A DNA stretch of 64,000 bases from Bradyrhizobium betae (lineage in GTDB: Bacteria; Pseudomonadota; Alphaproteobacteria; Rhizobiales; Xanthobacteraceae), in contig NZ_CP044543.1 in NCBI RefSeq assembly GCF_008932115.1, positions 6,888,501-6,952,500 of the forward strand. Direction: 5' to 3'. The notes under the pieces were generated by a model that saw nothing but the letters and a program-made list of their open reading frames with translations, made no database searches and was not told the origin of the DNA. Within the stretch, counting starts at the first letter, position 1, and every line of letters begins with the position of its first letter. The position numbers were made by a program, and so were the translations under genes. Shown in pieces: positions 8,530-38,608 of the stretch.

Positions 8530-14931
<6,402 letters not shown>

Positions 14932-14935
<4 letters not shown>

Positions 14936-16203
14936 CGTGCGCTCTCCCGCGCCAGAGCGAAGGGATTGCCGACGAGTCCTTCGATCGTGGCAACGGCGAC
15001 GTGGTAGTTCTGCAGCGCCTCCTGCTCCCGCAGACGAGCCTGGGTGACGTTGGCCAGCGCGTCCAACACTTCGAGCAGCGAGAAGCGCCCGGCGCCGTAG
15101 CCCTGTTCGATCTCGTTGGAGGCGGCCTGGGCCTTCGGGATGCCGGAGTCGCGAAGTATCGCGAGTTCCCGCAGCGAGCCCTGTACGTTGTCGTAGGCCC
15201 GTCCAGCGACGACGATCAGCGTGTTGCGGTTCGCCTCGCGTTCCGCCCGCGTCTTGGCGAGGTTCTGCTGTGCCGAGAGGATGTTGCCCTGGTTCTGATC
15301 GAAGATTGGGATCGGAACCGTGAGGCTGAGCCGCACCGCGTCGTCGTTGGTCTCGTTGTAATGTCGCCATCCGGCTGAAAGGCGAACGTCAGGATAAGGC
15401 CTGAGCCGCGCCAGCAGCAGTTCGGCGTTGCGTTGCGCATAAACCGCATTCCAGCGCACCAGTTGCGGGTTGGCGTCGATGGCGGCGATCACCGTCTGAA
15501 ACGGCGGCGCGCGGGTGGTGGCGTCGAGGCGTCCGGAGACGTTGCCGAACTTCGGGGAAGTGTCGCCCATGAGCACCGCCAGTTCGCGGCGCGCGCTGGC
15601 CAGGTTCGCCTTGGTGCGCTCGCGATCGGCCTTCACCAGCGCCGCTGCGACTTCGGCGCGACCGGTCTCGGCAGGCGACGAAGCACCGGCATCGACCCGG
15701 CGCTGAAGCAACGGCGTCAGCCGCTCAAGGGCGGCGACCTGCTCGTCGAGGATCTGGATCCGCCGCTGCAGCCCGAGCACGTTCAGAAACGCGATGGCCG
15801 TTTCCGACAGAATCTGCAGACGTACCGCCTGGCGCTCGATCGTCGCCCCGTTGACGCCGGCCTGGCCGGCCGCGATGCGGGCCTCGCGCTTGCCGAACAG
15901 CTCGAAAAGCTGGCTGATCTGCAGCGTCGTCTCGGCCGACTTCGTCCCGCGATAGATGCCCGAACCGAATGAGTTATCCTGTTCGTAGCTCAGTTCCGGA
16001 TTGAGGAGCGCCCCCGCCTGAATGCGCTGGCCCGTCGCGATCCCGATATCGCGTTCGGCGGCGGTCAAGCGGGGGCTGGTCGCGAGCGCGCGCTGCAGCG
16101 CCGCCCCGAGATTGAGGGTCTGCGAATGCGACGCCGCCGTCAGCCAAGGACTGACCAGCAACGCCGTCGCGCACGCGAAACGCGTGACGCACTTTGAAAA
16201 CAT
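14932..16203 (-). CDS. czcC: CzcC-type outer-membrane efflux channel (TolC family)
   Basis: Protein of 423 aa with a signal peptide (FACATALLVSPWLTAASHS) and two long alpha-helical repeats typical of outer-membrane factors: LGAALQRALATSPRLTAAER near the start and a second copy around LVRWNAVYAQRNAELLLARL. The motif AGRAYDNVQGSLRE and the ending GLVGNPFAL fit the CzcC/CusC class. It forms the trimeric exit duct for the CzcAB pump. It lies 54 bp after the small HCHGCF gene, suggesting co-transcription. Confidence 0.92.
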
Positions 16204-19699: not shown

Positions 19700-24262
<4,563 letters not shown>

Positions 24263-24497
24263 GGCGCGATTCTCGCTGCGCGGGAGGCGCGATCGCGCAG
24301 CGCCAGGCAAACGAGGGTTTCCAAGCCGCATCGACCGGCCGACGACGAACGCCGCTCCCACGTCTCGAAACCCATGGGCAAAGCGACGAATACATGCGCT
24401 CGCGCTTCTCGCGCGGCAGCGATCTCAGAAGACATGGAAATAGACCTGCAAACGAAGGCAAGAAGGCGCACGGATGCGCCGAGCGGGTTCGTTCAGA

Positions 24498-25639: not shown

Positions 25640-25843
25640 TCACCTCGCCGCGCGGGCCTTTACTTTGCGACCTTTGAGGTAAGCCCGGAGCGCCTTCTCG
25701 GCGAGAATGTAGGCGGGCTGACCGTCCTCGATCGCCGCCATTTTGAGAGATTTGATGAGATCCTCGGGGAGATAAAGCAAGATCTGCCGCCTGCCCCCTT
25801 CCCCTTCTCGGGCCACCGATACGTCAACCTTGGGCCGCTTCAT
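25640..25843 (-). CDS. Small ribbon-helix-helix (CopG/ParD-like) regulator
   Basis: Protein of 67 aa from ATG 25843, with GGAG 8-11 nt upstream. A basic start (MKRPKVDVSVAREGEGGRR) is followed by one beta strand (QILLYLP) and two helices (EDLIKSLKMAAIEDGQPAYI, LAEKALRAYL), the layout of ribbon-helix-helix DNA-binding proteins, with a basic tail. It is divergent from the island operon. Two near-identical palindromes lie between them, the closer one starting 30 bp from its start codon, so it probably represses both directions. Confidence 0.65.
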   Translation of the reverse strand: MKRPKVDVSVAREGEGGRRQILLYLPEDLIKSLKMAAIEDGQPAYILAEKALRAYLKGRKVKARAAR

Positions 25844-25872
25844 CCATCGATCTCCGCAAACAGCCAGGCGTG

Positions 25873-25886
25873 GATAGCTGACTATC
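25873..25886. promoter_or_regulatory. Candidate operator 1 (GATAGCTGACTATC)
   Basis: Palindromic site with arms GATAG and CTATC. It lies 30-43 bp upstream of the ribbon-helix-helix start, where it could cover its promoter. It matches the site at 26027 at 12 of 14 positions. Confidence 0.55.
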
Positions 25887-26026
25887 AAAATACGCATACC
25901 ATCGAGACGCGCTCCCGAGTAGCCGAAACAGACGATTTTAGCGCCCTTGTTCACAGCTTCGTAACACATTACCAGCTCGCGCGCTGGACAATTCCAGCCT
26001 CGGCGTTGCACTTTTCTGTACCGCTA

Positions 26027-26103: not shown

Positions 26104-26226
26104 ATGAGCAACGACGAAGAGAACGACAGGACGGCGACGCAGATCGCGCAATTCATCGTCCAAGGAGTTCCTCAGCCATGTGCGTCGACATTCCCGGCTA
26201 TCCGTCCGACCTCCGCCCCTTCCTGA
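26104..26226 (+). CDS. Possible 40-aa leader protein overlapping the next gene
   Basis: A 40-aa frame (MSNDEENDRTATQIAQFIVQ, then GVPQPCAST and a Pro-rich end) begins just after the operators and overlaps the following gene by 49 nt. An acidic short frame with the same arrangement precedes the paralogue at 28.2 kb. The shared PCAST part comes from overlapping conserved DNA, so it is weak evidence. It may be a coupling leader. The Shine-Dalgarno site is poor. Confidence 0.3.
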   Translation: MSNDEENDRTATQIAQFIVQGVPQPCASTFPAIRPTSAPS

Positions 26227-26783
26227 CTGCCAAGAGCCCGACCCCGATTCCAGTCGGCGACGCGGTCCGGCAAGATCTCTTGATTCAGTTGGCCCTAGAT
26301 CCCGAGATCGCGGCCATCGAGCACATCGCTTCGGTCGCTCTTTGCGGCGTCGTCTACCCTGTCGACCTTCTGCTCGCGACGCGCGGTGAAGCACGATTGA
26401 TCCTCGACGTCGGACCTCCGCTTCGCGATCTCGACGATGAAGGAACGCTCCTGCTCGCGGCCGACGAGCTTCGGGCGATGATCGTGCCTCTCTCGCTGGA
26501 CGACGTGTACGCGCGACCGCGGTCGTCGAACGCCAGGCTGGTCTGGGCGTCTCGCAATCGACCAGTTCCGGCGGATGGCCGAGAGCGGATCTTCGCGGCC
26601 ATCGAGGACGACGGCGACTGCACTGTTGCCAGTCTGGGCTTTGGTCTCCGCGACTGGGTCTTCGCGCTCGCCTGCGAGGGCGCCGTCGCGATCGATATCG
26701 ACCGCGACCCGATCGTCGACGCCCGCGTGCGTCTTGGCCGGTTTGCTCGGGTCCCGCCACTCCGCTCCCTCGCACCGCGCTGA
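26178..26783 (+). CDS. Island protein of unknown function, paralogue A
   Basis: Protein of 201 aa with AGGAG about 10 nt before ATG 26178. It aligns with the protein at 28219-28806: both have a short N-terminal arm, then LALDPEI or ATLDPEI, VYPVDLLLAT or ARPVDLQVVT, GPPLRDLDDEG or CRPLRSLGEAD, and FALACEGAVAIDID or LSLACRNEVEIDI. No catalytic motif or membrane segment is visible. The C-terminal part could be a winged-helix domain. The two copies flank three other genes and probably arose by duplication. Confidence 0.6.
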   Translation: MCVDIPGYPSDLRPFLTAKSPTPIPVGDAVRQDLLIQLALDPEIAAIEHIASVALCGVVYPVDLLLATRGEARLILDVGPPLRDLDDEGTLLLAADELRAMIVPLSLDDVYARPRSSNARLVWASRNRPVPADGRERIFAAIEDDGDCTVASLGFGLRDWVFALACEGAVAIDIDRDPIVDARVRLGRFARVPPLRSLAPR

Positions 26784-26790
26784 GGTTCCG

Positions 26791-27327
26791 ATGTGCGAAT
26801 GGCGTCAACGGCTCACCGATAGGTTTCCCGAATTGTTCGACAGCGCCAGGGTCGGCGGGCATGTCCCCGGCCTGTCGCTGGTGGATGATGGTTGGCGGCA
26901 CATCGTGTGCCGAGCCATCGCCCGGATCGCGACGGCGGTCGGCACCTCGCCACTGAAGATCACAGCGATCTCCAGGCGATCTGGAGTGCTGAGGCTGGAT
27001 TACGACCGTTCCTCGTCGATCGCGCGTCTGCCGGATATCGAGGCCGCGATCCAGTACGCCATCGCGCTGGCGGAGGCCGGTTCGGCGTGCACGTGCGAGC
27101 GGTGCGGCCGCGAGGGATGTCTTCACCAAGTCGGCTCGGAACTTGTCACCGCGTGTGTGGCGCATGCGAACGGGGTGAAGGTGCGCGAGGTGCGTGGCTT
27201 CGAAAACCTGCATGTCGTGCGGTCGTTCGACGGCAAACGTCCGGGGCCGATCATTCTTGGTCGTTATGACCGGATTACCGACGTCTTCGTCGCGGTCGAT
27301 CCGCGCTCGCTCCCGGCAAAGGAGTGA
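26791..27327 (+). CDS. Cys-cluster protein, phage/plasmid-type hypothetical
   Basis: Protein of 178 aa from ATG 26791, 7 nt after the previous stop. It has an N-terminal segment with LVDDGWRHIVCRAIARI, a middle IARLPDIEAAIQYAIALAEA, and a metal-binding cluster CTCERCGREGCLH followed by VTACVAHA. This order (DGW, a helix of I/L/E residues, then CxxCG and a Cys or His pair) recalls a family of phage and plasmid proteins of unknown role. It probably binds one zinc. No function can be assigned. Confidence 0.6.
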   Translation: MCEWRQRLTDRFPELFDSARVGGHVPGLSLVDDGWRHIVCRAIARIATAVGTSPLKITAISRRSGVLRLDYDRSSSIARLPDIEAAIQYAIALAEAGSACTCERCGREGCLHQVGSELVTACVAHANGVKVREVRGFENLHVVRSFDGKRPGPIILGRYDRITDVFVAVDPRSLPAKE

Positions 27328-27331
27328 GCGC

Positions 27332-28135
27332 GTGCGCATCTGGACCATGAGCGATCTCCATATCGAAACCGCGAGGGGCTGGGACCTGCCCTCTCCTTCG
27401 AAGCGGCCCACCTATGACGTGTTCGTTTGCGCCGGCGATCTCATGCCGGGCTTCGCGCGGGGCGTGAAGTGGTTGGCCGAGCGCATCGACGACCATCCGG
27501 TCGTGGTGGTAGCCGGCAATCACGAATTCTTTGGGCGAGACATCGACCGCGAGATCGAGAAGGCCCGCGAGGCCGCCTTCGGCACCAACGTCGTCGTACT
27601 TGATGACGAAGCCAAGTTGATCGGCGGCAAAGGCGGCGTCCTCATCGCCGGCGCCGTCGGGTGGACCGACTTCGACCTGTACGGCACGCCGGAGAAGTCC
27701 ATGCTCGCGGCCGCCGCCAGCATGAACGACTACCGTCGGATCCGGACGGATCGCTATGCCCGGCGTCTCCGTCCTCGAGACACGCTCGCCCGCCATCGCA
27801 AGACCCGCGAGTTCATCTCGTCCACGTTCGGCGGGCCGAAGACATCGAAGCGGCTCCTCGTTACCCATCATCCCTTCCACGCTTTCGGCGGTCGGAGCCG
27901 TCCGGCGTCGACCACGGACGAGCAGGATCTCTTGGGCCCGGCCTACGCTTCGCGCTGCCCCGAGATGTTCGCTGTCGGTCTGGACGCGGCCATCAGCGGG
28001 CACACGCACGTCAGTTTCGAGCTGGCGGTCGAGGGCGTGAAGCTCATCGCGAACTGCAAGGGATACGGTCCCTGGGACGCTGTCTCGCGCTGGGAAAACG
28101 ATGACTTCGATCCCTGCTTCACGTTCGACATCTAG
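27332..28135 (+). CDS. Calcineurin-like metallophosphoesterase of the island
   Basis: Protein of 267 aa from GTG 27332. All family blocks are visible: MSDLHIE (DxH), FVCAGDLMPG (GD), VVVAGNHEFFG (GNHE), LLVTHHPFH and ISGHTHVSFE (GHxH). These residues bind a dinuclear metal centre that hydrolyses phosphoesters. Substrates may be nucleic acids, nucleotides or phosphoproteins. It lies in an unbroken operon with unknown genes, so a role in element maintenance or defence is only an inference. It is only distantly related to the 54.8-kb enzyme. Confidence 0.82.
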   Translation: MRIWTMSDLHIETARGWDLPSPSKRPTYDVFVCAGDLMPGFARGVKWLAERIDDHPVVVVAGNHEFFGRDIDREIEKAREAAFGTNVVVLDDEAKLIGGKGGVLIAGAVGWTDFDLYGTPEKSMLAAAASMNDYRRIRTDRYARRLRPRDTLARHRKTREFISSTFGGPKTSKRLLVTHHPFHAFGGRSRPASTTDEQDLLGPAYASRCPEMFAVGLDAAISGHTHVSFELAVEGVKLIANCKGYGPWDAVSRWENDDFDPCFTFDI

Positions 28136-28144
28136 GAGGACGCG

Positions 28145-28396
28145 ATGGACGACGAGATCACCCCCGCGCCGCACGACAACGGCTTCTACTCAATCCAACC
28201 TTCGACCGGACATGAGCCATGCGCTTCGACCACAGGATCCGCCCCCGATCTGCCGATTTCGTTTCGCCAAAGGCTTCACGACCGATTCCGCACGCTGGCG
28301 GGATCGTCAGGGACGCCTTGCTACAGGCAACGTTGGACCCCGAGATTCTTGAAATCGGCTTCCTCGGGACGGCGGGGACCGAAGCGCGGCCGGTAG
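28145..28396 (+). CDS. Possible small protein with strong Shine-Dalgarno, overlapping paralogue B
   Basis: A frame of up to 83 aa starts MDDEITPAPHDNGFYSIQPS. It is preceded by AGGAGG 6 nt upstream, one of the best ribosome sites in the island, whereas paralogue B at 28219 has a weak one. The first 25 codons are not shared with another gene; the rest overlaps paralogue B in another frame and has shadow-like Arg- and Ser-rich composition. It may serve to deliver ribosomes to paralogue B. The same arrangement occurs at 26104. Confidence 0.35.
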   Translation: MDDEITPAPHDNGFYSIQPSTGHEPCASTTGSAPDLPISFRQRLHDRFRTLAGSSGTPCYRQRWTPRFLKSASSGRRGPKRGR

Positions 28397-28806
28397 ATCT
28401 TCAAGTCGTCACCTTCCGGACAAATGCCGGCTGGCGGTATCTGGACATCGAGGTCTGCCGGCCGCTGCGGTCGCTCGGGGAAGCCGATGCCTTCGATCGG
28501 GAACTTCGGGCACGCGGCCTGGCGCCCTACACATTGACCGGAGCGGATATTCTCAAGGAGCCCCGCTTCTCCACGGCTCGCGCGATCTGGACGTACCGAC
28601 GCTTTTCGGTCCCGCCGGACATGCGTCACCGGCTGCTCGCGGCCTTGGCGGAGGACGGGCCGATGTCGCTCCATCATCTCTGCACTTTGGTACCCGGACC
28701 TCTCGATCCGTTTGCGTCGGTGCTATCGCTCGCATGCCGCAACGAGGTCGAGATCGACATTTCGACGCCGCTGAGCCGGTCGACGACCGTGAGGTCTCGC
28801 TCATGA
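28219..28806 (+). CDS. Island protein of unknown function, paralogue B
   Basis: Protein of 195 aa, homologous to paralogue A (26178-26783) from the first residues (MRFD against MCVD) to near the end. The best-conserved block is ATLDPEI, and the C-terminal LACRNEVEIDI is also kept. Its stop overlaps the start of the AAA/M41 gene (ATGA). Direct linkage to that gene suggests it may be a partner or adaptor. No family was recognised. Confidence 0.6.
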   Translation: MRFDHRIRPRSADFVSPKASRPIPHAGGIVRDALLQATLDPEILEIGFLGTAGTEARPVDLQVVTFRTNAGWRYLDIEVCRPLRSLGEADAFDRELRARGLAPYTLTGADILKEPRFSTARAIWTYRRFSVPPDMRHRLLAALAEDGPMSLHHLCTLVPGPLDPFASVLSLACRNEVEIDISTPLSRSTTVRSRS

Positions 28807-30878
28807 CCGGAGGGTTCTCCAAACTGCGGCACGGTATGTTGCCCGCTCCGGAAGACGATCCGGAGATCACCGACCTAGAGGCAGCGATCGAAGGTCCACC
28901 GGATGAAGTTCCCGTTCGCCGCTCCGATCGACCTGACGCGCGGCTGAATGCGAAAAAGGTTCGCGGCGCGATCGTAGCCGAGGCTTTTCGGCGGGCCGCC
29001 CCTCCGTCGTTGAGGCGAGCCATTGCGGCGGGACGCCCGGTTGTGAGCGTGGTTCAGGCCCCCTCCTCGGCATGGATGGAGGCGGTCGACGAATATCTGA
29101 GCGAGGCTCGCGTCATGACTATCGCACGCGCCGGCTCGAACAAGTCGATCGACGTCAATCAGGTCGGAAACGAAGAGGTAGCGAAGTGCCTGGTTGCCGG
29201 ACGCAGCTTCGTCGGGATATCGACGGATCCGCAGCGTTTCTTGCCCACCACTCTCCTGCTGTCGGCCGACGTTACCGTGAAACTGGTTCCGCCCGACGCC
29301 AAGTCGGTGCGCGTCCTTCTCAGAACGTTGCTGCCACCGATGGGACGCATACCGAGCAGCCGCATCGCCGACACATCGGGTCTCGACCTGAACGATCTGG
29401 TTTCCATCTTCAGGAGCGGCTCGACGGCTTCCGACGCGTTGGAACGGCTTGCGACCCTCGCGATGCGCCGGCGGCAGAGCTCGCCCCATGTCGAAGGTGC
29501 GCCGATCCTCTCTAACGCGATCGAGTTCGGCGGTGCCGCCCAAATTTTCGGCCTGAACTTCGTGAAGGATGTCCAAGATTGGAGGCAAGGATCCATTCAG
29601 TGGGCGGAAGCGGACCACGGCGCGATTCTGCATTCAGAGCCGGGCCACGGTAAAAATTTTTTCGTAAATTCTCTCGCCTTGGCGGCAGGCACCGGCCTCG
29701 TCGTCGCGAAGATCTCGGATTTTTTCGCCGAACGCGAAGGACACTTGGGGGATGTCGTCAAGTCGCTCAGGGCCGTGTTCAGCAGGGCTCGAGCGGAAGC
29801 GGCCCGCTTTGGGCCGTCGGGGCAGCGCGGGTGTCTTTTGGCATTCGACGAACTGGATGAACTGCCTTCTAGAAACCGGATGTCGCGGCACAACGCCGAC
29901 TTTTTTTCGGTCGTCGTAGGCGAGATGTTGACGAGTTTGGATTCCGTCATGTCCGACAATGAGAGCAACGTCGGACTGTGCGTGTTGGGAATGACCAACC
30001 GGCTCGACGCCATCGATCCCGCGCTCCTGCGCCCCGGGCGCTTCGAACGCACGATCGAGATTCCTCGCCCCGACGCGGCAGGCCTGGCCAACGTCCTGCG
30101 ATATCATCTTCGCGGTACGCCTCTCGAAGGAGCGGATCTGTCATCCGCGGCGCTTCTGCTCGAAGGTATTTCCCCGGCCGAAGCGATGGAGGTCGCAAGA
30201 TTGGCGCGGCGCGCCGCAAGGCGTGCCGGCCGGCCTTTGAACGTCGACGACCTCGTCAGGGAAGGTAGCGGGCCGGCACTGCCCCAGACGGTCTTGCGTC
30301 GCATCGCCGTACATGAGGCGGGCCACATGGTCGCCTGCTTCGCGACCGGGGGCAAACCTCTCAGCGCCAGGATTCTCAACCGGGGACATATCGGTGGCGA
30401 CGCCCGCCTGAATTTCGAGGAGAACCAAGTGTGGACGCTCGATCGTCTGGAGAACCATATCGTCTTTCTGCTCGGGGGTCTCTGTGCAGAGAAGGTGATC
30501 CTTGGTTCGGTTTCCACGGGGGCCGGTGGCACTCAGAGGAGCGACCTGGCGATCTGCACGTCGCTGCTCGCGGCCGCCTTTACGTCCACGCCCCTGCTCG
30601 GCAGGCTCGTCTACCGCTGCGCCGATGGCGAAGCGCTGGCCATGGTCAGTAGAGATGCGGCGCTCGCCAAGCAGGTCGACGACCGACTGAAAATGCTCGA
30701 GCGGCGAGCGACCGGGATAGTCATGCGGCACGCGGCCGCCGTCGTCCGGATCGCGGACGCTTTGGTAGCCAGACGTTACGTAAGCGGCGACGAAGCGAAG
30801 GATCTCTTCCTGGGCCGAGCGTCGGTCCGCCAACCAGTCGCAGCCGTCGCGAACAATACGCCGAGGAATACCCCATGA
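28803..30878 (+). CDS. Soluble FtsH-like AAA+ ATPase fused to M41 peptidase, degenerate P-loop
   Basis: Protein of 691 aa. Residues about 1-245 are unique and have no membrane helices, unlike FtsH. The AAA domain has Walker B LLAFDE (345-350), sensor GMTNR and arginine fingers RPGRFER (410-416). Its Walker A is SEPGHGKN (278-285), lacking the first Gly and the final Thr/Ser of GxxGxGK[ST]. The M41 domain has HEAGH (504-508) and a probable third zinc ligand D581 in GAGGTQRSDL. The zinc site therefore looks intact while nucleotide binding is doubtful. The start at 28803 overlaps the upstream stop. Confidence 0.85.
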   Translation: MTGGFSKLRHGMLPAPEDDPEITDLEAAIEGPPDEVPVRRSDRPDARLNAKKVRGAIVAEAFRRAAPPSLRRAIAAGRPVVSVVQAPSSAWMEAVDEYLSEARVMTIARAGSNKSIDVNQVGNEEVAKCLVAGRSFVGISTDPQRFLPTTLLLSADVTVKLVPPDAKSVRVLLRTLLPPMGRIPSSRIADTSGLDLNDLVSIFRSGSTASDALERLATLAMRRRQSSPHVEGAPILSNAIEFGGAAQIFGLNFVKDVQDWRQGSIQWAEADHGAILHSEPGHGKNFFVNSLALAAGTGLVVAKISDFFAEREGHLGDVVKSLRAVFSRARAEAARFGPSGQRGCLLAFDELDELPSRNRMSRHNADFFSVVVGEMLTSLDSVMSDNESNVGLCVLGMTNRLDAIDPALLRPGRFERTIEIPRPDAAGLANVLRYHLRGTPLEGADLSSAALLLEGISPAEAMEVARLARRAARRAGRPLNVDDLVREGSGPALPQTVLRRIAVHEAGHMVACFATGGKPLSARILNRGHIGGDARLNFEENQVWTLDRLENHIVFLLGGLCAEKVILGSVSTGAGGTQRSDLAICTSLLAAAFTSTPLLGRLVYRCADGEALAMVSRDAALAKQVDDRLKMLERRATGIVMRHAAAVVRIADALVARRYVSGDEAKDLFLGRASVRQPVAAVANNTPRNTP

Positions 30879-31141
30879 TCCGCATCCATATCGAACTTCT
30901 GCCGGGAGGCTCGACGCATCTTCGGCGCTCCATCGCGAGCGTCCGGATATCCAATCTGAGCGATCTGGCGGACCGATCCGACTACGGCATCGACGTGCTG
31001 GAGGCCGCCGACCCGCTCACGGGCACCCCGCCGCGGCTCGCCAGCACCAAGGTGTTCGACCACTACCGACGGCAGTCGATCTGGGCGTTGCTGGCCAAGG
31101 TAGTGGACGCCATCGAAAGCGCCGATTTCGTGGAGCTCTGA
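30875..31141 (+). CDS. Small island protein, unknown
   Basis: Protein of 88 aa, overlapping the AAA/M41 gene by 4 nt and abutting the next start. It begins with a beta-strand-like IRIHIELLPGG, has SIASVRISN and then a helical C-terminus (SIWALLAKVVDAIESADFVE). It resembles short phage and plasmid proteins that start with paired beta strands and an I-x-N motif, none with a known role. The tight coupling argues that it is translated. Confidence 0.6.
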   Translation: MIRIHIELLPGGSTHLRRSIASVRISNLSDLADRSDYGIDVLEAADPLTGTPPRLASTKVFDHYRRQSIWALLAKVVDAIESADFVEL

Positions 31142-32017
31142 ATGAAAATCCGGTCGCCCACGACGTCGCCATTTGCTCCGGAGAGCTCGGCCTGGTTGAA
31201 CGGCTTGAGAGATGCGGATGCATCGGCGTCGACGATCGACTGCTATTCGCGGGACATTCGGGATCTTGCAGCTGCGCTCGGCTCCGACGGGGTAGCCGCG
31301 ATCGCGCGGATCGACCAGTCGGTCGTCGATGGCATCGCGGCCACCTGGGCTGCGACCGGGACGGCGCAGTCCACCATCTTTAGACGCTTCTCCGCATTGC
31401 GAAGTTTTGCCCGCTTTCTCAGCCTGGAGCGTTCCTATGACTGCTCGAAGCTGCTGAGCTGCCGCTTTCCGCCCTGCGGCAGGGTCCGCCGCGTGGCCGT
31501 AAGCGACGACGTCATCGAGATCATGCTCGCAGCGCCAACGGGGGATTGCGACGAGTCATGGACATACGCGCGCGATCACGCTGCGCTTCGCTTGGCTGCA
31601 TCATCCGGACTCACGACCGCCGAGATGGTCGGCTTGAATCGAGGCGACTACAATCCGCGGCTGTCCACGGTCAGGGTAACGGGCTCCCATCTTAACGGGC
31701 GGCCTGGCATCGTTTCGCCGGAGGCCAAGGAGTGGCTGGAGCGGTACCTGCGAGCACAGCCCTTCGAGCTTACGCCGAGCGCACCTTTGTTCGTTACGTC
31801 GCGGGGGACCCGCTTCAGCGCGAGATCGCTTCAACTGGCTTGCCGCCGGCTGCGACAGGCGACTGGAGTCGGTCCGGACGCCGTGCCTACGTCACTGCGC
31901 AACGCTCTCGCCGCGAACCTGGTCCGCTCCGGTGCGGCGCCCGAAGTGGTGGCAAAGACCTTGGGCATCGGCGTCGCCGCGGCGTGGCGCTACTTCGACG
32001 CGCCGGAGATGCTGTGA
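31142..32017 (+). CDS. Tyrosine-recombinase-like protein with lost catalytic residues
   Basis: Protein of 291 aa. The N-terminal SAM-like core-binding domain (STIDCYSRDIRDLAAALG, TIFRRFSALRSFARFLSLE) and the C-terminal fold of XerC/D-type recombinases are clear. The catalytic set is eroded: the box I Arg is Thr (SGLTTAEMVGL, about residue 158), HxLRH has become TSLRN (R253 kept, both His lost), and LGH has become LGI. The Tyr remains (WRYF, Y284). It probably binds DNA without cutting it efficiently. It is the last gene of the 26-32 kb operon. Confidence 0.78.
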   Translation: MKIRSPTTSPFAPESSAWLNGLRDADASASTIDCYSRDIRDLAAALGSDGVAAIARIDQSVVDGIAATWAATGTAQSTIFRRFSALRSFARFLSLERSYDCSKLLSCRFPPCGRVRRVAVSDDVIEIMLAAPTGDCDESWTYARDHAALRLAASSGLTTAEMVGLNRGDYNPRLSTVRVTGSHLNGRPGIVSPEAKEWLERYLRAQPFELTPSAPLFVTSRGTRFSARSLQLACRRLRQATGVGPDAVPTSLRNALAANLVRSGAAPEVVAKTLGIGVAAAWRYFDAPEML

Positions 32018-32504: not shown

Positions 32505-32711
32505 GTGCGTTCCGTCCATAACCATCTCTCCCCGATCGTCGAGCGCATCTTCGGTGCCATCGATCACGCGTTCGGAATCCCGACGCGGGTCTATCGCGAC
32601 AACTCGCGCGAATTCTACAGCCTCAGCACTCTGGACTCTTTTGTCCAAGAGCAGGTCGATCTCGTTTGCGCAGACCTGCGCAAACGCCCCGACGAGGACA
32701 CCGATGCCTAA
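32505..32711 (+). CDS. Small protein just upstream of tnsA
   Basis: Protein of 68 aa from GTG 32505, overlapping tnsA by 8 nt. The sequence reads like a real helical protein (HLSPIVERIFGAIDHAFGIP, then DSFVQEQVDLVCADLRKRP) and not like a shadow frame. It could be the first gene of the transposition operon. No family was recognised. Confidence 0.45.
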   Translation: MRSVHNHLSPIVERIFGAIDHAFGIPTRVYRDNSREFYSLSTLDSFVQEQVDLVCADLRKRPDEDTDA

Positions 32712-33468
32712 GAAGATCGAGCGCGTCTGGACCGCCCTCTGCGACGGCGTCGAGGTCTTCCGCCTCGAAGCCAATGAGGCGACGCGCCGCGTGATCACTG
32801 GCCGCCGCAATCACGTCGTCGGCGGTCACTATTCGATGAAGATGAACGCCCACATCGTCCACGAAGGCGGCATCGAAGAGCGCTTCGTCCGGGTCTGCGA
32901 CTACGTGCTCGGCGTCAAGCGGATCTGGGCCCAGCCGGAGACGATCCGGATGAACGTCTTTCCTGAGTTCGCGAACGAGATCTACACGCCCGACTTTCTC
33001 GTCGAGCACGACGCCGGCTTCGTCCGCTACGAAATCAAAGAGTGGCGCGAACTTCGTCCGCCGCGGCCGGCCGTCGGCGACGAAAAGGCGCAGAGGCGCT
33101 GGGATGACGCGGTCCTGCTCCGCGCGCGCCTCCGTCGCATCCGCGAGGCCTACCGGCGGGCTGGCCTTCCTTTCCGCGTCATCACGGAGCGCGGCATCGG
33201 CTTGCGTTGGGGGGATCGCGACGTCGTCGACGAGATCGCGGCCAACGACCGCTGGGACATCGAACCGGAGGAGCTCGACCGGCTCGTCACGGCGCTGAAC
33301 GATGCCGGCGGCTCCCTGCCCCTGTCGCGCTGCCAAGCCCTCTTCGAGGAGGCGCCGCATCCGCGCGGCGTCGTGCTGTCGCGCATCCCGGAGCGCATCG
33401 TCTACATCGACCTATTCGCCCCGATCCGCCCCGAGACGATCGTCTACAAGGGAGCGATCTCATGCTGA
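32704..33468 (+). CDS. tnsA: TnsA-like endonuclease
   Basis: Protein of 254 aa from ATG 32704. The nuclease core is visible: an acidic helix (VHEGGIEERFV, E59 region), then IYTPDFLV (D97) and VRYEIKEW (E110-x-K112), the restriction-enzyme-like fold of TnsA. TnsA cuts the 5' ends of the element so that transposition is cut-and-paste. The C-terminal part is TnsA-like in length and helical content. It overlaps tnsB by 7 nt, as expected for a TnsA-TnsB pair. Confidence 0.85.
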   Translation: MPKKIERVWTALCDGVEVFRLEANEATRRVITGRRNHVVGGHYSMKMNAHIVHEGGIEERFVRVCDYVLGVKRIWAQPETIRMNVFPEFANEIYTPDFLVEHDAGFVRYEIKEWRELRPPRPAVGDEKAQRRWDDAVLLRARLRRIREAYRRAGLPFRVITERGIGLRWGDRDVVDEIAANDRWDIEPEELDRLVTALNDAGGSLPLSRCQALFEEAPHPRGVVLSRIPERIVYIDLFAPIRPETIVYKGAISC

Positions 33469-35819
33469 AAATTCTCGATGCGAGGGAGGCCGCCGCCTTG
33501 TCCACGCCCGTGGACGAGGAACCGCGTCCCACCATCGACTACCTTCTCTTCGATAACTTGACGCCCAACCAGACTGTTCTCATCGACAGCAAACCTCACC
33601 AGTTCTTCAAGAAGATGGAGGGCGAAGGCCCCCACCTCCTCATCAACCACCATACCGGCGAGACCGCGCGCTTAACAACGACCCGGCTGATCGAGCTATT
33701 CCAGGAGGGGCGCTACTACAACCCTCTGAGGAAGCCGCCTCTGGTCGACGAGAAGAAGAGTATCGACGAAACACGCGCGTTGATCGGCAAGGTTTACCAC
33801 ACCCTCAACGCCAAGCCGCGCGGACGCGCGGCCGGCATCTGGCGTTACGTCGGCGCGTTCATCAACGAGATGCTCATCGCGCCGCCCGGGAAGCCGTTCT
33901 ACCAGAACCATGCAAACGCTGAAGCGATCATAGAACGGGTCGACGGTACGATCGACCTCGAGAACCGGAAGCGGCCGCAAGGGAAGCAGATCAAGAAGCC
34001 CAAGAAGACGACGCGAACGGTTCTTCGCTGGGTGGCCGCCGAACTGGTGCACGGCATGCAGGAAGCCACCTTCGTGCACAAGAATGCGATCAAGTCCCGC
34101 GAGCAGAAGCTGCCCAAGGAGGTGTTTTCCATCATCTCCGCGACCATCCGTTACCTGGTCGAAATCTCGGCCGAGTTCGGCCCGACGAAGATTCAAATGT
34201 TCGCGAACCAGAGGATCGATGGCCGCAACGCGGAGATCCGGATCCGCAACGAAGAGATCAAAACGCTCATCGAGAACGGCGAACTTTCGGAAAGGCAGTT
34301 GCTCGATGAACTTCCGACCGTCGGTTTGACGACGGTACAGGTTCAGTACCGTCGTTTCGACGCGTGGATCAGGCTCGCAAAGGAGCAAGGTGTACAGGCT
34401 GCAGATCTTCAGTTCGGCGGCCAGGGAAGTTTCGAGCGTCCCAAACGCATCCTGGACGTTGTCGAGTACGATCACCACCAATTCGATTTCGCGGGCATCT
34501 TGGGCGAGACCCCGTTCGGTCGTGTCTGGTCGAAGGCCGGAATCGACAGGTTCTGGATTTGCCTCGGTTTGGATACCTACAGCGGGTACCCTGTCGGATT
34601 TTTTCCGTCGTTCGAACCAGGCGGGCTTTACCCAGCACTGGCCGCGATCGATCACGGGATCAAGGTCAAGACTTACGTCGATAAGCGATTTCCGCAGATT
34701 CGCGGATCTCTCCTGAGCTACGGCAAGCCAAGAAAGATCCGGTACGACAACGGGAAGGAGTTCGTTTCGGAACAGATGGCGCTGGCCTTGGCCCGCGTCA
34801 GGATCGGGTTCGAGATGGCGGTGCCCCATCAGCCGGACACCAAACCCTATGTGGAGCGGTTTTTCGGAACGCTCGAGTCGGATTTCGTGTCGTGGCTTAA
34901 GGGATCGACCGGATCCAGTCCGCAAAAGCGAGGCGCGCGCAAACCACTGCTCGACGCGTGCATCACGATCGACGACTTCATCATGCTGTTCCACCTCTGG
35001 CTGATCGAGGTCTACGCCCGGCGCAAGCAGGAAGGAATGGACTGGGACACTCCGGAAGAGCGGTGGCTCCGAGGTGCGTCGAGCGATTCTAGCCGCCCGC
35101 AGCCGCTCACCGCGGACGAAGCCAAGAAGTGGGACTTGATCCCGAGTTTGGAGTTGAAGCTTACCGCGGGCAAGGACGGCATCCTCTGGAACAACCTCGT
35201 CTATCAGTCACCGCAAATCCAGGCGATGCGAGCCCGATCGGGCAGCATGGGAAAGAGAAAGCGCACGAACACGCCAGTCACCGTGCGCATTCCGCTGGCG
35301 AACGTAGGCCGCTGCGTGGTGATCGATCACACTAGCCGCTTCCCCGGTAACGAACACCTCCCGGAGGAGTTCGTGGTGATGTCGACCGACGAGGAGGCGC
35401 ACGGCCTCACAAAATTCCAGTGGGAGGCGCTGAGCAAACTGCGCCTCGCAAAGAAGCATGCCCCCACAGAGCATCCCTCCCACAGGGTCGGATTCAACCA
35501 CCTCCTCGAGGAAGCACTGAAAGCTATGGGCGCGGTCCCGACCGGCGAGCGGCCTCCGGCGAAAGCCGTGCTCTCGAACGGGTACTATCCCCGTATAGCC
35601 GGTGTCCTCGGTCGAGGCGCCGAGGAGCATGCGCTCGCCGTCACCGATGAGTTGATCGAGAGGACCGGAATCTTCAGGCCGGCCTCCGCGACCGAAGAGG
35701 TTGTCCCGCCGCCTCCCGTTCATGCTGCTCGCGCAGAAGAGACATCCGCAAAGGATACGTCCGCACCGCGCAAGAAGCTCCGGTTCGGGGTGGACGCGCC
35801 GATCATCAGGTCGCAGTAA
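33462..35819 (+). CDS. tnsB: TnsB/TniA-like DDE transposase
   Basis: Protein of 785 aa. N-terminal DNA-binding helices lead into an integrase-type core with catalytic D337 (VEYDHH), D429 (IRYDNGKEF) and E465 (KPYVERFFGT). A Mu-transposase-type C-terminal beta-barrel follows (DGILWNNLVYQSP). The tail is Pro-rich and basic and may carry the TnsC-interaction segment. It binds the element ends and joins 3' ends to target DNA. It is longer than Tn7 TnsB (702 aa). All three catalytic residues are present, so it looks active. Confidence 0.92.
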   Translation: MLKILDAREAAALSTPVDEEPRPTIDYLLFDNLTPNQTVLIDSKPHQFFKKMEGEGPHLLINHHTGETARLTTTRLIELFQEGRYYNPLRKPPLVDEKKSIDETRALIGKVYHTLNAKPRGRAAGIWRYVGAFINEMLIAPPGKPFYQNHANAEAIIERVDGTIDLENRKRPQGKQIKKPKKTTRTVLRWVAAELVHGMQEATFVHKNAIKSREQKLPKEVFSIISATIRYLVEISAEFGPTKIQMFANQRIDGRNAEIRIRNEEIKTLIENGELSERQLLDELPTVGLTTVQVQYRRFDAWIRLAKEQGVQAADLQFGGQGSFERPKRILDVVEYDHHQFDFAGILGETPFGRVWSKAGIDRFWICLGLDTYSGYPVGFFPSFEPGGLYPALAAIDHGIKVKTYVDKRFPQIRGSLLSYGKPRKIRYDNGKEFVSEQMALALARVRIGFEMAVPHQPDTKPYVERFFGTLESDFVSWLKGSTGSSPQKRGARKPLLDACITIDDFIMLFHLWLIEVYARRKQEGMDWDTPEERWLRGASSDSSRPQPLTADEAKKWDLIPSLELKLTAGKDGILWNNLVYQSPQIQAMRARSGSMGKRKRTNTPVTVRIPLANVGRCVVIDHTSRFPGNEHLPEEFVVMSTDEEAHGLTKFQWEALSKLRLAKKHAPTEHPSHRVGFNHLLEEALKAMGAVPTGERPPAKAVLSNGYYPRIAGVLGRGAEEHALAVTDELIERTGIFRPASATEEVVPPPPVHAARAEETSAKDTSAPRKKLRFGVDAPIIRSQ

Positions 35820-35825
35820 GCGCAA

Positions 35826-36821
35826 ATGTCCGATCTGGAAAATATCCTCAATTCTCCGCTTGTTTTGAGCAAGCTCGACGACATTAGAGGCATCTTCGTG
35901 AGGCATACGAAGGCCGAAGAAGCGCGGGAGATGGTCTTGTTGTCGCTCGCGTTCGCCAAGCGCTTGCGCGAAAACTCGAGCACGTATCTCATCGGCTGGT
36001 CGCGTTGCGGAAAGAGTGAGATCGTCAAGCGAATGCTCACAGAACGCACCGGCAAGCCCGTATCGAAGGAAAAAATTCAGCTGCTTCAGGGCAACGGAAA
36101 GCGCTACCTGTACGTCGACCTCATGGGCGGATCGACGCCGCGGATATTGGCCCGGAAGATCAACTTTAAGATCTTCAACGATCGGCTCAGCCTGCGACTC
36201 GGCGAGGAGGAAGGCACCGACGCGCTCATCGCTAATCTCAATGACAACGAAGTGGACGCGGTCTTCCTAGATGAGGCGCAGAATCTCGCGGAGGACGGTG
36301 TGAAGAAGCTGGCGAGGTTCATTCTGGCGTTCGAGAACTCCTGCAACGCGCCCTTGTTCGTCGTGGGGCCCCCGGTCCTGACGAAGATGATGGTCAAGGC
36401 GGACGCGATGGGGCAGCGGTCCGGCGGCATGAAGATCCTTTCGCCCTTCGGCTTCGCGAACGACGCCCAACGGGAGGAACATGCGGCGTTTGTGGCCGCC
36501 TTCTCGGATGAGCTTCCCTTCGAATCGAACTGGTTTAAGGAGAACGAAGACGACCACCACATGCTGCGTGCGACGTTCTTCGCACAGCGCGGACGTCCCG
36601 GCCGACATTCGCTGCTGGTGGAGGCGGCGGTACCTCACGCCTTCATGCGGACCGGCGGGGTCGAGCCGAAGGAACTGACGAAAGAAGACATCGCCGCGGG
36701 TTTCGATCGCGTCTTTCTCAGCCAGGAGATCATGCAGGGCCGTAACCCATTTCGAGGCGAAGACTACAGCAGGCTTCCTTCGTTCCCGCTCAGCGTGGAA
36801 CTGGAAGCGACCACCGAGTAG
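35826..36821 (+). CDS. tnsC: TnsC/TniB-like AAA+ regulator of transposition
   Basis: Protein of 331 aa. Walker A is GWSRCGKS (57-64) and Walker B is AVFLDEAQN (145-153), followed by a sensor-like FVVGPP and a C-terminal helical region. TnsC/TniB polymers bind target DNA with ATP and recruit the transposase, linking it to the TniQ target selector. Both nucleotide motifs are intact. It begins 6 nt after tnsB. Confidence 0.88.
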   Translation: MSDLENILNSPLVLSKLDDIRGIFVRHTKAEEAREMVLLSLAFAKRLRENSSTYLIGWSRCGKSEIVKRMLTERTGKPVSKEKIQLLQGNGKRYLYVDLMGGSTPRILARKINFKIFNDRLSLRLGEEEGTDALIANLNDNEVDAVFLDEAQNLAEDGVKKLARFILAFENSCNAPLFVVGPPVLTKMMVKADAMGQRSGGMKILSPFGFANDAQREEHAAFVAAFSDELPFESNWFKENEDDHHMLRATFFAQRGRPGRHSLLVEAAVPHAFMRTGGVEPKELTKEDIAAGFDRVFLSQEIMQGRNPFRGEDYSRLPSFPLSVELEATTE

Positions 36822-36831
36822 GTCCGACACG

Positions 36832-37887
36832 ATGATTCCGAACACGCCGTGGCTCAAGACCGTATCGCAGTTCGACGACGAAGCCATCGCTTCCGTCGCG
36901 GTCCGGTTGGCTCCGATGGGGCGCATCGACGCCGACAAGCTGCTCCGGCTTCATCTCGACATGCCCTGGGAGTCAGTCTCGGCGATCGCCGGCAAACCCG
37001 AGGCAGTCGCCGAACTGGCAGCCTTGGGTTCGTTCGATCTCCAAAGGCTCTCGATCGGCGCTTATAAAATATTCAAAGATCGCATCGAATTCCTTGGTCG
37101 CGAACTGCCCGTGGGTTGGTTCTTGCCAGAGCGTCGTAGGGTCGCGCCCGCTCGTTTGGCCGCGGACGGCAACGATGCTCGCATCAGGAACCGCTGGCTT
37201 GTCTCGGCCTTTCCTTGCGACGTCGAGAGCGGCGAGGTGCTGCTCGACAGATGCCCGTCGTGCATCAACCTGTTGGGCTGGAGAAATATGACCAACGTTT
37301 GGTCCTGCCAGATCTGTGACTTCGACATGCGGACTGCGAGGCCAAAGGCCTGTCCGCATGAAATCGTCGCCGCTGCCAAGGAGCTGGCCGACTACATCTT
37401 TGACTATGATCTTAGATTGCCGGGTCCTCTCGGCGACCTGTCGTCGGTGGACATTCTCAAGCTCAGCGGATGGATGGCCTACTTTAGAGCTATTCCTCAG
37501 GAGCTCTTCCTCGGCATCACCGTGAAAAACGCCGCCGCAGGATTTTCGCAACTCAAGCGATGGCCTTGCTCGTTCGATGAGATTGTCCTCGACCTCCTCG
37601 GGGCCTCGACCGCAGCCGACCTGGCTGTCGGGGATACGATCTCGCGCTATAAGGCCGCCGCGGGGATCATGGCCTCCATCGACCGCCTGCCCTCGCTCAA
37701 TGCCCGCGATATCCTGAAGTCACGCCTGATGGAACTTCTGCACCTCGGTCACGGCTTCGCCGAAGCCTTCCTCAACGTAACGGAACCGGTGCTGCCGCTC
37801 GGGCTCGCTATTTCAGGGCTCGACCGTCGACGATCGAGTAAAGCCGCTCGAGCCAAGACCGACCGAGGTCTAATCCCGTCGGATTGA
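36832..37887 (+). CDS. tniQ: TniQ/TnsD-family target-selection protein
   Basis: Protein of 351 aa. The TniQ zinc finger is CPSC (141-144) and CQIC (159-162), preceded by the typical RCPSC approach and a Trp-rich turn. The C-terminal part is helical. Tn7 TnsD is about 500 aa and CAST TniQ proteins are often 150-400 aa, so this is intermediate. Alone it may recognise a chromosomal attachment site; no CRISPR array or cas gene is present. Its last 80 bp overlap the convergent ArsR-type gene. Confidence 0.82.
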   Translation: MIPNTPWLKTVSQFDDEAIASVAVRLAPMGRIDADKLLRLHLDMPWESVSAIAGKPEAVAELAALGSFDLQRLSIGAYKIFKDRIEFLGRELPVGWFLPERRRVAPARLAADGNDARIRNRWLVSAFPCDVESGEVLLDRCPSCINLLGWRNMTNVWSCQICDFDMRTARPKACPHEIVAAAKELADYIFDYDLRLPGPLGDLSSVDILKLSGWMAYFRAIPQELFLGITVKNAAAGFSQLKRWPCSFDEIVLDLLGASTAADLAVGDTISRYKAAAGIMASIDRLPSLNARDILKSRLMELLHLGHGFAEAFLNVTEPVLPLGLAISGLDRRRSSKAARAKTDRGLIPSD

Positions 37888-38255: not shown

Positions 38256-38410
38256 TTTTGGACGTGTCAACAGTGCCAAAATGGAGTTTCAGAAATGACG
38301 GCAGTGCCAAATTTGAGTCTTGAGTGCCAAAATCTGCTAACTGCATGAAAAAAAAGACTGAACAAACCTAGGCACATAGCGTGTGGATAAATCGGCTCTA
38401 GTGCCAAAAT
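38256..38410. repeat. Array of AGTGCCAAAAT repeats; candidate transposon end
   Basis: Direct copies lie at 38272-38282, 38303-38313 (AGTGCCAAATT), 38323-38333 and 38400-38410. A degenerate inverted copy (TTTTGGACGTGT, 38256-38267) makes a 26-bp dyad with the first copy. The run starting TGTCAACAGTGCC (38265) resembles Tn7-family termini (TGT, then (A)GTGACAAA-like TnsB sites). Read that way, the interior would be to the right, away from the tns genes, so the assignment is unsettled. The whole 38123-38608 gap holds these repeats and no gene that I can see. Confidence 0.5.
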
Positions 38411-38608
38411 CTAGCGCGGATTACATCCTTGCTCATCCGGATCGGATCGAACAGCTCTGCGTTCGTTGGGCGACCACTGCCCCGGTCGTTTGAGATCGTG
38501 CCGGGCGACGGCTTGGGTTCTGAGTCTCCCAGTGCTCCGCGGCATCGTAGCTCATCGTTCGACGGCTGTGCGAAAGCGTCGCGGGGCCCGGGTCGACTGA
38601 CCTGATCG

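Follow-up and report, generated by a model that had tools for sequence, protein, structure and literature searches.

What is the role of a compact operon that combines a protease, a phosphoesterase, a degenerate recombinase, and two unfamiliar paralogs? The question is raised by a 64,000-nucleotide stretch of the Bradyrhizobium betae genome (contig NZ_CP044543.1 of assembly GCF_008932115.1, forward strand positions 6,888,501 to 6,952,500), the whole of which is called the window below. An initial annotation, made from the window sequence alone, had singled out this operon as a candidate undescribed system, possibly for defence or element maintenance, and had seen in its genes no likeness to a standard transposon. 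The operon exists as described, with seven overlapping or almost abutting genes on the plus strand (26178-32017). Its apparent distance from transposons does not hold: two of its products are homologs of the transposition protein TnsA, and a tnsA-tnsB-tnsC-tniQ gene cluster (32704-37887) lies 0.7 kb downstream. Based on location and homology, we firmly assign the operon to a Tn7-like transposon, of which it is probably an accessory module.

The assignment of the element follows from its four plus-strand transposition genes. The TnsA endonuclease (32704-33468; PF08722, E 5e-5, just under the cut-off) keeps the catalytic residues E58, D97, and K112, and the TnsA profile A3 weakly matches TnsA chains in PDB (best E 7e-4). 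The tnsB gene (33462-35819) overlaps tnsA with its ATG at 33462 and encodes a DDE transposase with an rve match, in which D336, D428, and E464 are invariant among 16 sequences. It is followed by genes for a TnsC/TniB-like AAA+ ATPase (35826-36821; AAA_22, 6e-14; TniB, 2e-4) and for a TniQ protein of 351 amino acids (36832-37887; PF06527, 6e-10), short by comparison with its homologs. Among the features by which a Tn7-like element is recognized, a TnsB-type DDE transposase with TnsC and TniQ and a TnsA with its catalytic residues are thus found.

The right end of the element (38272-38425, plus strand) consists of four AGTGCCAAA(A/T)T repeats at 38272, 38303, 38323, and 38400 and a terminal ACA at 38425; the repeat cluster (38272-38410) is the sole one in the 97 kb searched. 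A near-identical second copy (99.97% and 99.86% identity) is present in a Bradyrhizobium metagenome assembly, locus L003 (here and below, L, G, and P numbers are our own labels for loci, genomes, and protein sequences). The two copies match from 18219, where the fetched locus starts, to exactly 38425, and then continue with other sequence. Because the L003 copy diverges exactly there, the operon lies inward of this end, within the element. Past the end, the window copy is followed by a nos cluster, and the right flank in L003 differs. The operon genes recur not only in L003 but also, diverged and variously combined, in many other genomes, and therefore the gene set is more than a chance assembly. 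A left end, which in a Tn7-like element would carry further repeats and a terminal TGT and, with the right end, bound a 5-bp target duplication, was not found by searching for the repeat motif in the 97 kb around and including the window or for doublet and end patterns in the whole host genome, and no close empty site was found among 60 genomes of the genus, the host genome included.

The operon contains a pair of related proteins, A (26178-26783) and B (28219-28806). The initial annotation had recognized correctly that they are paralogs (local identity 38%, E 2.6e-14; 28% identity in a global alignment) and had considered them novel. They are homologs of TnsA: in the hhalign comparison, the A/B profile (16 proteins, A4) matches TnsA (seven proteins, A3) with a probability of 96.8% over 178 columns, while the controls, namely the AAA-M41 alignment, the TnsB alignment, and reversed TnsA, yield 0.0-0.1%. 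A narrower alignment (A1) of A, B, and ten close relatives matches TnsA with 87.9%. The A/B profile also picks up the tnsA of the window itself (E 6.9e-8) and tnsA genes beside tnsBC-tniQ in loci L073-L076 from other orders or classes, of which L073 and L074 are nearly identical. A and B align with TnsA across both the nuclease and the C-terminal parts. Of the 25 TnsA proteins, 23 keep the catalytic Glu, 23 the Asp, and 22 the Lys, versus one, ten, and none, respectively, of the 21 A/B proteins; A itself lacks the Glu and the Lys. In a tree of these 46 sequences, one branch parts A/B from TnsA with a value of 94 in the Shimodaira-Hasegawa-like approximate likelihood ratio test, which is not decisive; the tree also has long branches. 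A single origin of A/B is possible. Judging from alignments, A and B are relatives of TnsA and not functional TnsA, and we refer to them as pseudo-TnsA. Two A/B copies are present in the window and likewise in L004. As a separate observation, the TnsA proteins of L071 (9694-10455) and L117 (7599-8450) also lack the Glu, Asp, and Lys residues, which suggests either replicative transposition or a dead element.

The stop of the B gene overlaps the start of the gene for the AAA+/M41 protease (28803-30878; 691 amino acids; Pfam AAA, 2.6e-18; Peptidase_M41, 1.3e-11), one of the proteins named by the initial annotation and borne out by the Pfam matches. All 18 aligned relatives share, without exception, the HExxH motif, an SDL downstream of it, the lysine of the Walker motif, and two arginines, and the HEAGH of the window protein is intact. 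A 19-residue hydropathy scan of the N-terminal 230 residues gives a peak of 1.11 for the window protein and at most 1.71 for its relatives, three of 18 being borderline (1.62-1.71). Thus, the protein is predicted to be an ATP-dependent protease without evident membrane segments. It shares with FtsH the AAA module and the M41 peptidase with HExxH and a downstream Asp, but differs in its N-terminal region. The identification as an ordinary FtsH was rejected, given the lack of evident membrane segments and an NCBIfam FtsH score of 106.7 bits against a cut-off of 600. Across the 397 genomes of the order that were surveyed, ordinary FtsH fits only the C-terminal part of the family model (about E 1e-80), and the full-length relatives stand out far above this background. 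Family members were picked by eye from the matches listed, some of which are partial; among these matches the family occupies at least 70 places in at least 48 of the 397 genomes. In the plasmid collection, the AAA-M41 protein was found on one Methylobacterium megaplasmid, with no tns genes within 9 kb; the DNA of the AAA region gave only short matches there, and TnsB gave none at E 1e-40.

The association of these proteins with transposition genes extends over many diverged loci. Most loci comprise about 9 kb on each side, some of them ending at contig ends, and many of the sequences are frames read from stop to stop, which include some non-coding residues ahead of the true start. In the scans of the order and the phylum, two to eight candidates were scored per genome, and absences are thus soft. 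At least 20 of the 27 TnsB places found at E 1e-100 or better have an AAA-M41 gene within 10 kb; of the seven without one, one has AAA-M41 at a distance of 21 kb, another has A/B, and three start less than 2.5 kb from a contig end. AAA-M41 is carried by at least 24 of the 39 genomes with TnsB versus at least 48 of 397 overall (odds ratio 22 among the matches listed). Conversely, among 54 AAA-M41 loci, TnsB was found within the fetched stretch in 24 and at 20-24 kb in two more. The loci anchored on A/B are more tightly bound to transposition genes: 14 of the 18 share a contig with TnsB, the exceptions being the stretches seen of G112, G218, G187, and G023. Co-occurrence of A/B with the protease, a check proposed in the initial annotation, was found in part: among 40 AAA-anchored loci, A/B (E 1e-10) is present in four of the 13 linked to tns genes versus none of the 27 unlinked ones (Fisher p 0.008), one of the latter, L148, having a weak A/B match (2.9e-6). 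Gene order points the same way. In 11 of the 20 loci where TnsA was called, AAA-M41 is at most about 1.1 kb from tnsA and on its strand; in 12 of the 18 loci where A/B was called, A/B overlaps AAA-M41 or is at most 26 bp from it, again with both on one strand. For 24 loci, the evolutionary distances of AAA and TnsB are correlated (r 0.70; 0 of 5000 permutations). Within this general agreement, the window is, as far as these comparisons go, a local hybrid. Its AAA protein is nearest to that of L020 (36%, versus 16% for TnsB), where the same order of Cys protein, phosphoesterase, B, and AAA is observed, while its TnsB is nearest to that of L124 (45%, versus 30% for AAA), and the recombinase-like protein X and the short TniQ are common to the window and L124. 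No AAA-M41 was seen in the 18-20 kb fetched around four tns loci from other orders or classes.

Protein X (31142-32017; 291 amino acids; Phage_integrase, 3.4e-12), the last in the operon, is an Xer-like tyrosine recombinase whose N-terminal domain begins at residue 17. In an alignment with XerD over most of its length, X has T, S, T, and I in place of R, K, H, and H and keeps one Arg, while the Tyr region falls outside the alignment; all these XerD positions we take to be catalytic. The homolog from L124 likewise lacks those residues in the alignment. The description of this protein as a dead recombinase in the initial annotation thus agrees with the residues lost relative to XerD. Among 23 loci with TniQ (the near-copy L003 left out), X is present in the window and L124 only. 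These two loci have a TniQ of 351 amino acids, while TniQ has at least 580 amino acids in 20 of the 21 others and is split into two frames in L026. A short TniQ has been suggested to accompany an additional target selector, and the TnsF protein encoded by Tn6022 is reported to be a tyrosine recombinase that is inactive (Faure et al., PMC10293859). Because of the short TniQ and this precedent, target selection is, by analogy, the likeliest role of X. The similarity to Tn6022 extends to the size of TniQ (369 amino acids there); TnsF itself, however, is larger (498 amino acids) and is described with a zinc-finger N-terminus that X lacks.

How could these components act together? Our main reading, to which we assign a probability of about 0.45, is that pseudo-TnsA would direct the AAA-M41 protease at transposition proteins, while the dead recombinase would pick the targets. 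A and B would retain the fold of TnsA and remain able to make contact with TnsB, TnsC, or the paired ends, and might serve as adaptors or decoys that carry the co-translated protease to the transposition proteins. As an outcome, either the complex would be dismantled after insertion or the transposase would be held low, so that the element would not be recut. X and the short TniQ would select target DNA in the manner of TnsF in Tn6022, and DNA or a nucleotide signal may be the substrate of the phosphoesterase. The adaptor or decoy function is suggested by (i) the 4-bp overlap of the B and protease genes, (ii) the closeness of A/B to AAA-M41 and of AAA-M41 to tnsA on the same strand, (iii) the origin of A and B from a transposition subunit, and (iv) the precedents of ClpX acting on MuA and on PseCAST. 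MuA remains bound to the product until ClpX removes it (PMC5357137), and ClpX raises PseCAST integration (PMC12326709). An AAA+ unfoldase remodels the transposition complex of Mu, is proposed to do so for type I-F CRISPR-associated transposons (CAST), and may do so here, judging from the genes; but ClpX is encoded by the host, whereas the protease described here is of the M41 (FtsH) class and is carried by the element.

Several observations weigh against this reading. Pfam did not match any of the 16 A/B members searched to TnsA, and the A/B profile found nothing in PDB; the homology of A/B to TnsA therefore rests on the profile-profile comparison, the cross-matches, and the residues. Since the loci behind the TnsB profile had been found via A/B or AAA, the profile is biased towards association. 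At a relaxed threshold of E 1e-60 or better, the number of TnsB places with AAA-M41 within 10 kb is at least 23 of 50; many of the weaker places are shorter, TniA-like-looking matches. No TnsB was found near 28 of the 54 AAA-M41 loci, although one locus counted among the unlinked, L132 from G305, has TnsB 47 kb off on the same contig. Separate occurrence of the genes in unrelated contexts had been named in the initial annotation as a ground for refutation; the outcome is mixed, as it applies to the protease, whereas A/B is tied to tns genes. Nine of the 13 AAA-anchored loci linked to tns genes have no separate A/B found. By a quick method, linkage to tns genes changes at least ten times on the AAA tree; members of the protease family thus exist without transposons, and the family may be a mobile cargo. 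The composition of A/B loci varies as well: A/B runs with the tns genes and opposite to the protease gene in L023 and L024, occurs without the protease in L022 and L025, and occurs with neither the protease nor tns genes in the fetched stretches of L077 and L078. The presence of X and a short TniQ in two related elements is one evolutionary event. Finally, the Walker A motif of the window protease (GHGKN, residues 281-285) ends in Asn, as in its near relatives P0003 and P0005, where other aligned members have Ser or Thr, and the L003 copy (P0002) has lost, in frame, 21 residues inside the AAA domain that are kept in P0001 and P0003; both changes could weaken the use of ATP.

The main rivals to protease targeting by pseudo-TnsA are a defence cargo and a dominant-negative brake, and sequence alone does not decide between the three. 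As a cargo, the phosphoesterase and the AAA-M41 protease would form an anti-phage or anti-plasmid module carried by Tn7-like elements, with the TnsA-like proteins as sensors. Tn7-like elements carry a cargo rich in defence genes (PMC8649781), the AAA domain is remotely similar to IetA (1.9e-10 and 2e-10), and in L116, L131, L133, and L134 the phosphoesterase and AAA-M41 genes adjoin each other beside an exonuclease cluster without tns genes nearby. Unlike variable cargo, however, the protease gene keeps its place next to tnsA on the same strand in the 11 of 20 diverged loci mentioned above, and AAA distances track those of TnsB; the derivation of A/B from a transposition subunit also speaks against a cargo, and PADLOC gives remote domain matches only (to IetA, TRIP13, and PDC-S10), with no specific model. 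We consider a defence cargo rather unlikely, and a free-standing defence operon, conceivable for the protease family as a whole, is disfavoured here by the linkage to tns genes and the TnsA origin of A/B. Of the two functions offered by the initial annotation, element maintenance was the right direction. The partner of IetA is a subtilase, which was not seen here; the protease is instead in the same chain as the AAA domain and of the M41 type, which further separates the operon from IetAS and other defence pairs of AAA proteins and proteases.

Alternatively, A and B could be dominant-negative TnsA variants that occupy TnsC or TnsB, blocking transposition or superinfection by related elements and thus controlling copy number, while the protease removes TnsA or TnsB. 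The loss of nuclease residues in proteins that still align with both parts of TnsA agrees with such a brake, as does the presence of two copies in both the window and L004. The sequence does not separate it from protease targeting by pseudo-TnsA, the two readings being distinct chiefly in the direction of the expected effect; on balance we hold it to be unlikely. A purely coincidental neighbourhood, with an accessory protein-quality operon beside transposase genes and no functional link, would agree with the AAA-M41 operons that are remote from tns genes, where inspection by eye suggests chromosomal surroundings. It is at odds with the proximity of the protease to at least 20 of the 27 strong TnsB places and with the homology of A/B to TnsA, and is very improbable.

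The system shares with Tn7 and Tn7-like transposons (TnsABC with TniQ or TnsD) the TnsA, the TnsB DDE transposase, the TnsC/TniB-like ATPase, TniQ, and, at the right end, the repeats and the terminal ACA, but adds an AAA-M41 protease before tnsA and a further TnsA lineage that is catalytically dead. Literature searches, which covered few subscription papers and no supplements, retrieved no M41/FtsH protease or dead-TnsA lineage in Tn7-like elements, and term searches found neither an M41/FtsH protease nor a lineage of dead TnsA paralogs in the main texts of two Tn7 surveys. A copy of FtsH is carried by a Pseudomonas genomic island, but it is membrane-bound (PMC6629908). The set of pseudo-TnsA and AAA-M41 in Tn7-like elements is thus apparently undescribed, and on this point the initial annotation was right.

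The remaining operon genes and the surroundings of the element can be described briefly. The spacing of the seven genes from A to X is, in order, 7 bp, 4 bp, 83 bp, overlaps of 4 bp and 4 bp, and 0 bp. The true start of A is at 26178; the position 26104 given by the initial annotation, whose extent is otherwise correct, is the ATG of a short plus-strand open reading frame (26104-26226) that crosses this start. Since a second one (28145-28396) overlaps the start of B in a similar manner, translational coupling is possible. Protein C (26791-27327; 178 amino acids) has a Cys cluster (CxCxxC...C), a probable zinc site, and a homolog at the same place in L020. It is followed by the calcineurin-like metallophosphoesterase (27332-28135; PF00149, Metallophos, E 3.9e-11; phrog_1649, E 3.7e-29), also named correctly by the initial annotation, with all of the motifs DxH, GD, GNH, HH, and GHTH; a PDB sequence search with it gave no match. 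The gene of protein S (30875-31141; 88 amino acids), which the initial annotation had left unnamed, overlaps the protease gene, and a homolog is located behind AAA-M41 in L004. Within the operon, the Pfam matches above the cut-offs are those to the phosphoesterase, AAA, M41, and recombinase domains only. A divergent open reading frame on the minus strand (25640-26011) is a doubtful candidate for a ribbon-helix-helix regulator (RHH_5, E 0.069, under the cut-off), and a frame for 68 amino acids (32505-32711), which overlaps the start of tnsA, has no Pfam match. To the left of the operon, a resistance-nodulation-division (RND) efflux pump with a membrane-fusion protein (20071-24361) lies within the stretch shared with L003; a second RND set with a heavy-metal ATPase (9020-15370) is outside it. 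Another contig of the host genome encodes a second, shorter TnsB/TniA-like transposase (G000:C2:119353-120726).

Members of the protease family from other loci have different neighbours. A cluster of small proteins, most of them beside AAA-M41 (20 loci, L110, L112, L113, L118, L121, L122, L129, and L132 among them), belongs to DUF6634 by Pfam in the four members tested and is a candidate alternative partner of the protease. Other family members lacking A/B are accompanied by a larger protein, with a weak DUF4357 match in the tested member. In L116, L126, L130, L131, L133, and L134, the phosphoesterase and AAA-M41 are found with the exonuclease cluster (PolB-type by Pfam in L134, the one tested); four of these six loci have no tns genes nearby, and they possibly represent a separate undescribed accessory or defence system.

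If proteolysis targeted by pseudo-TnsA indeed operates here, a branch of Tn7-like transposons would pair a self-encoded AAA+ protease with a dead paralog of a transposase subunit, the latter as the targeting adaptor, and the element rather than the host would dismantle or limit the transposition complex. This broader proposition is tentative, and we lean somewhat against it. The clearing of Tn7-type complexes after insertion, with ClpX taking apart the post-transposition complex, is itself a hypothesis, and assistance by ClpX is reported to increase the activity of CAST in human cells, though with toxicity (PMC12326709). Were the proposition true, clearance of Tn7-type complexes would become testable through an element-borne remodelling protease and a dead-subunit adaptor, and X would join TnsF as a second instance in which a Tn7-like element has recruited a dead tyrosine recombinase for target selection.

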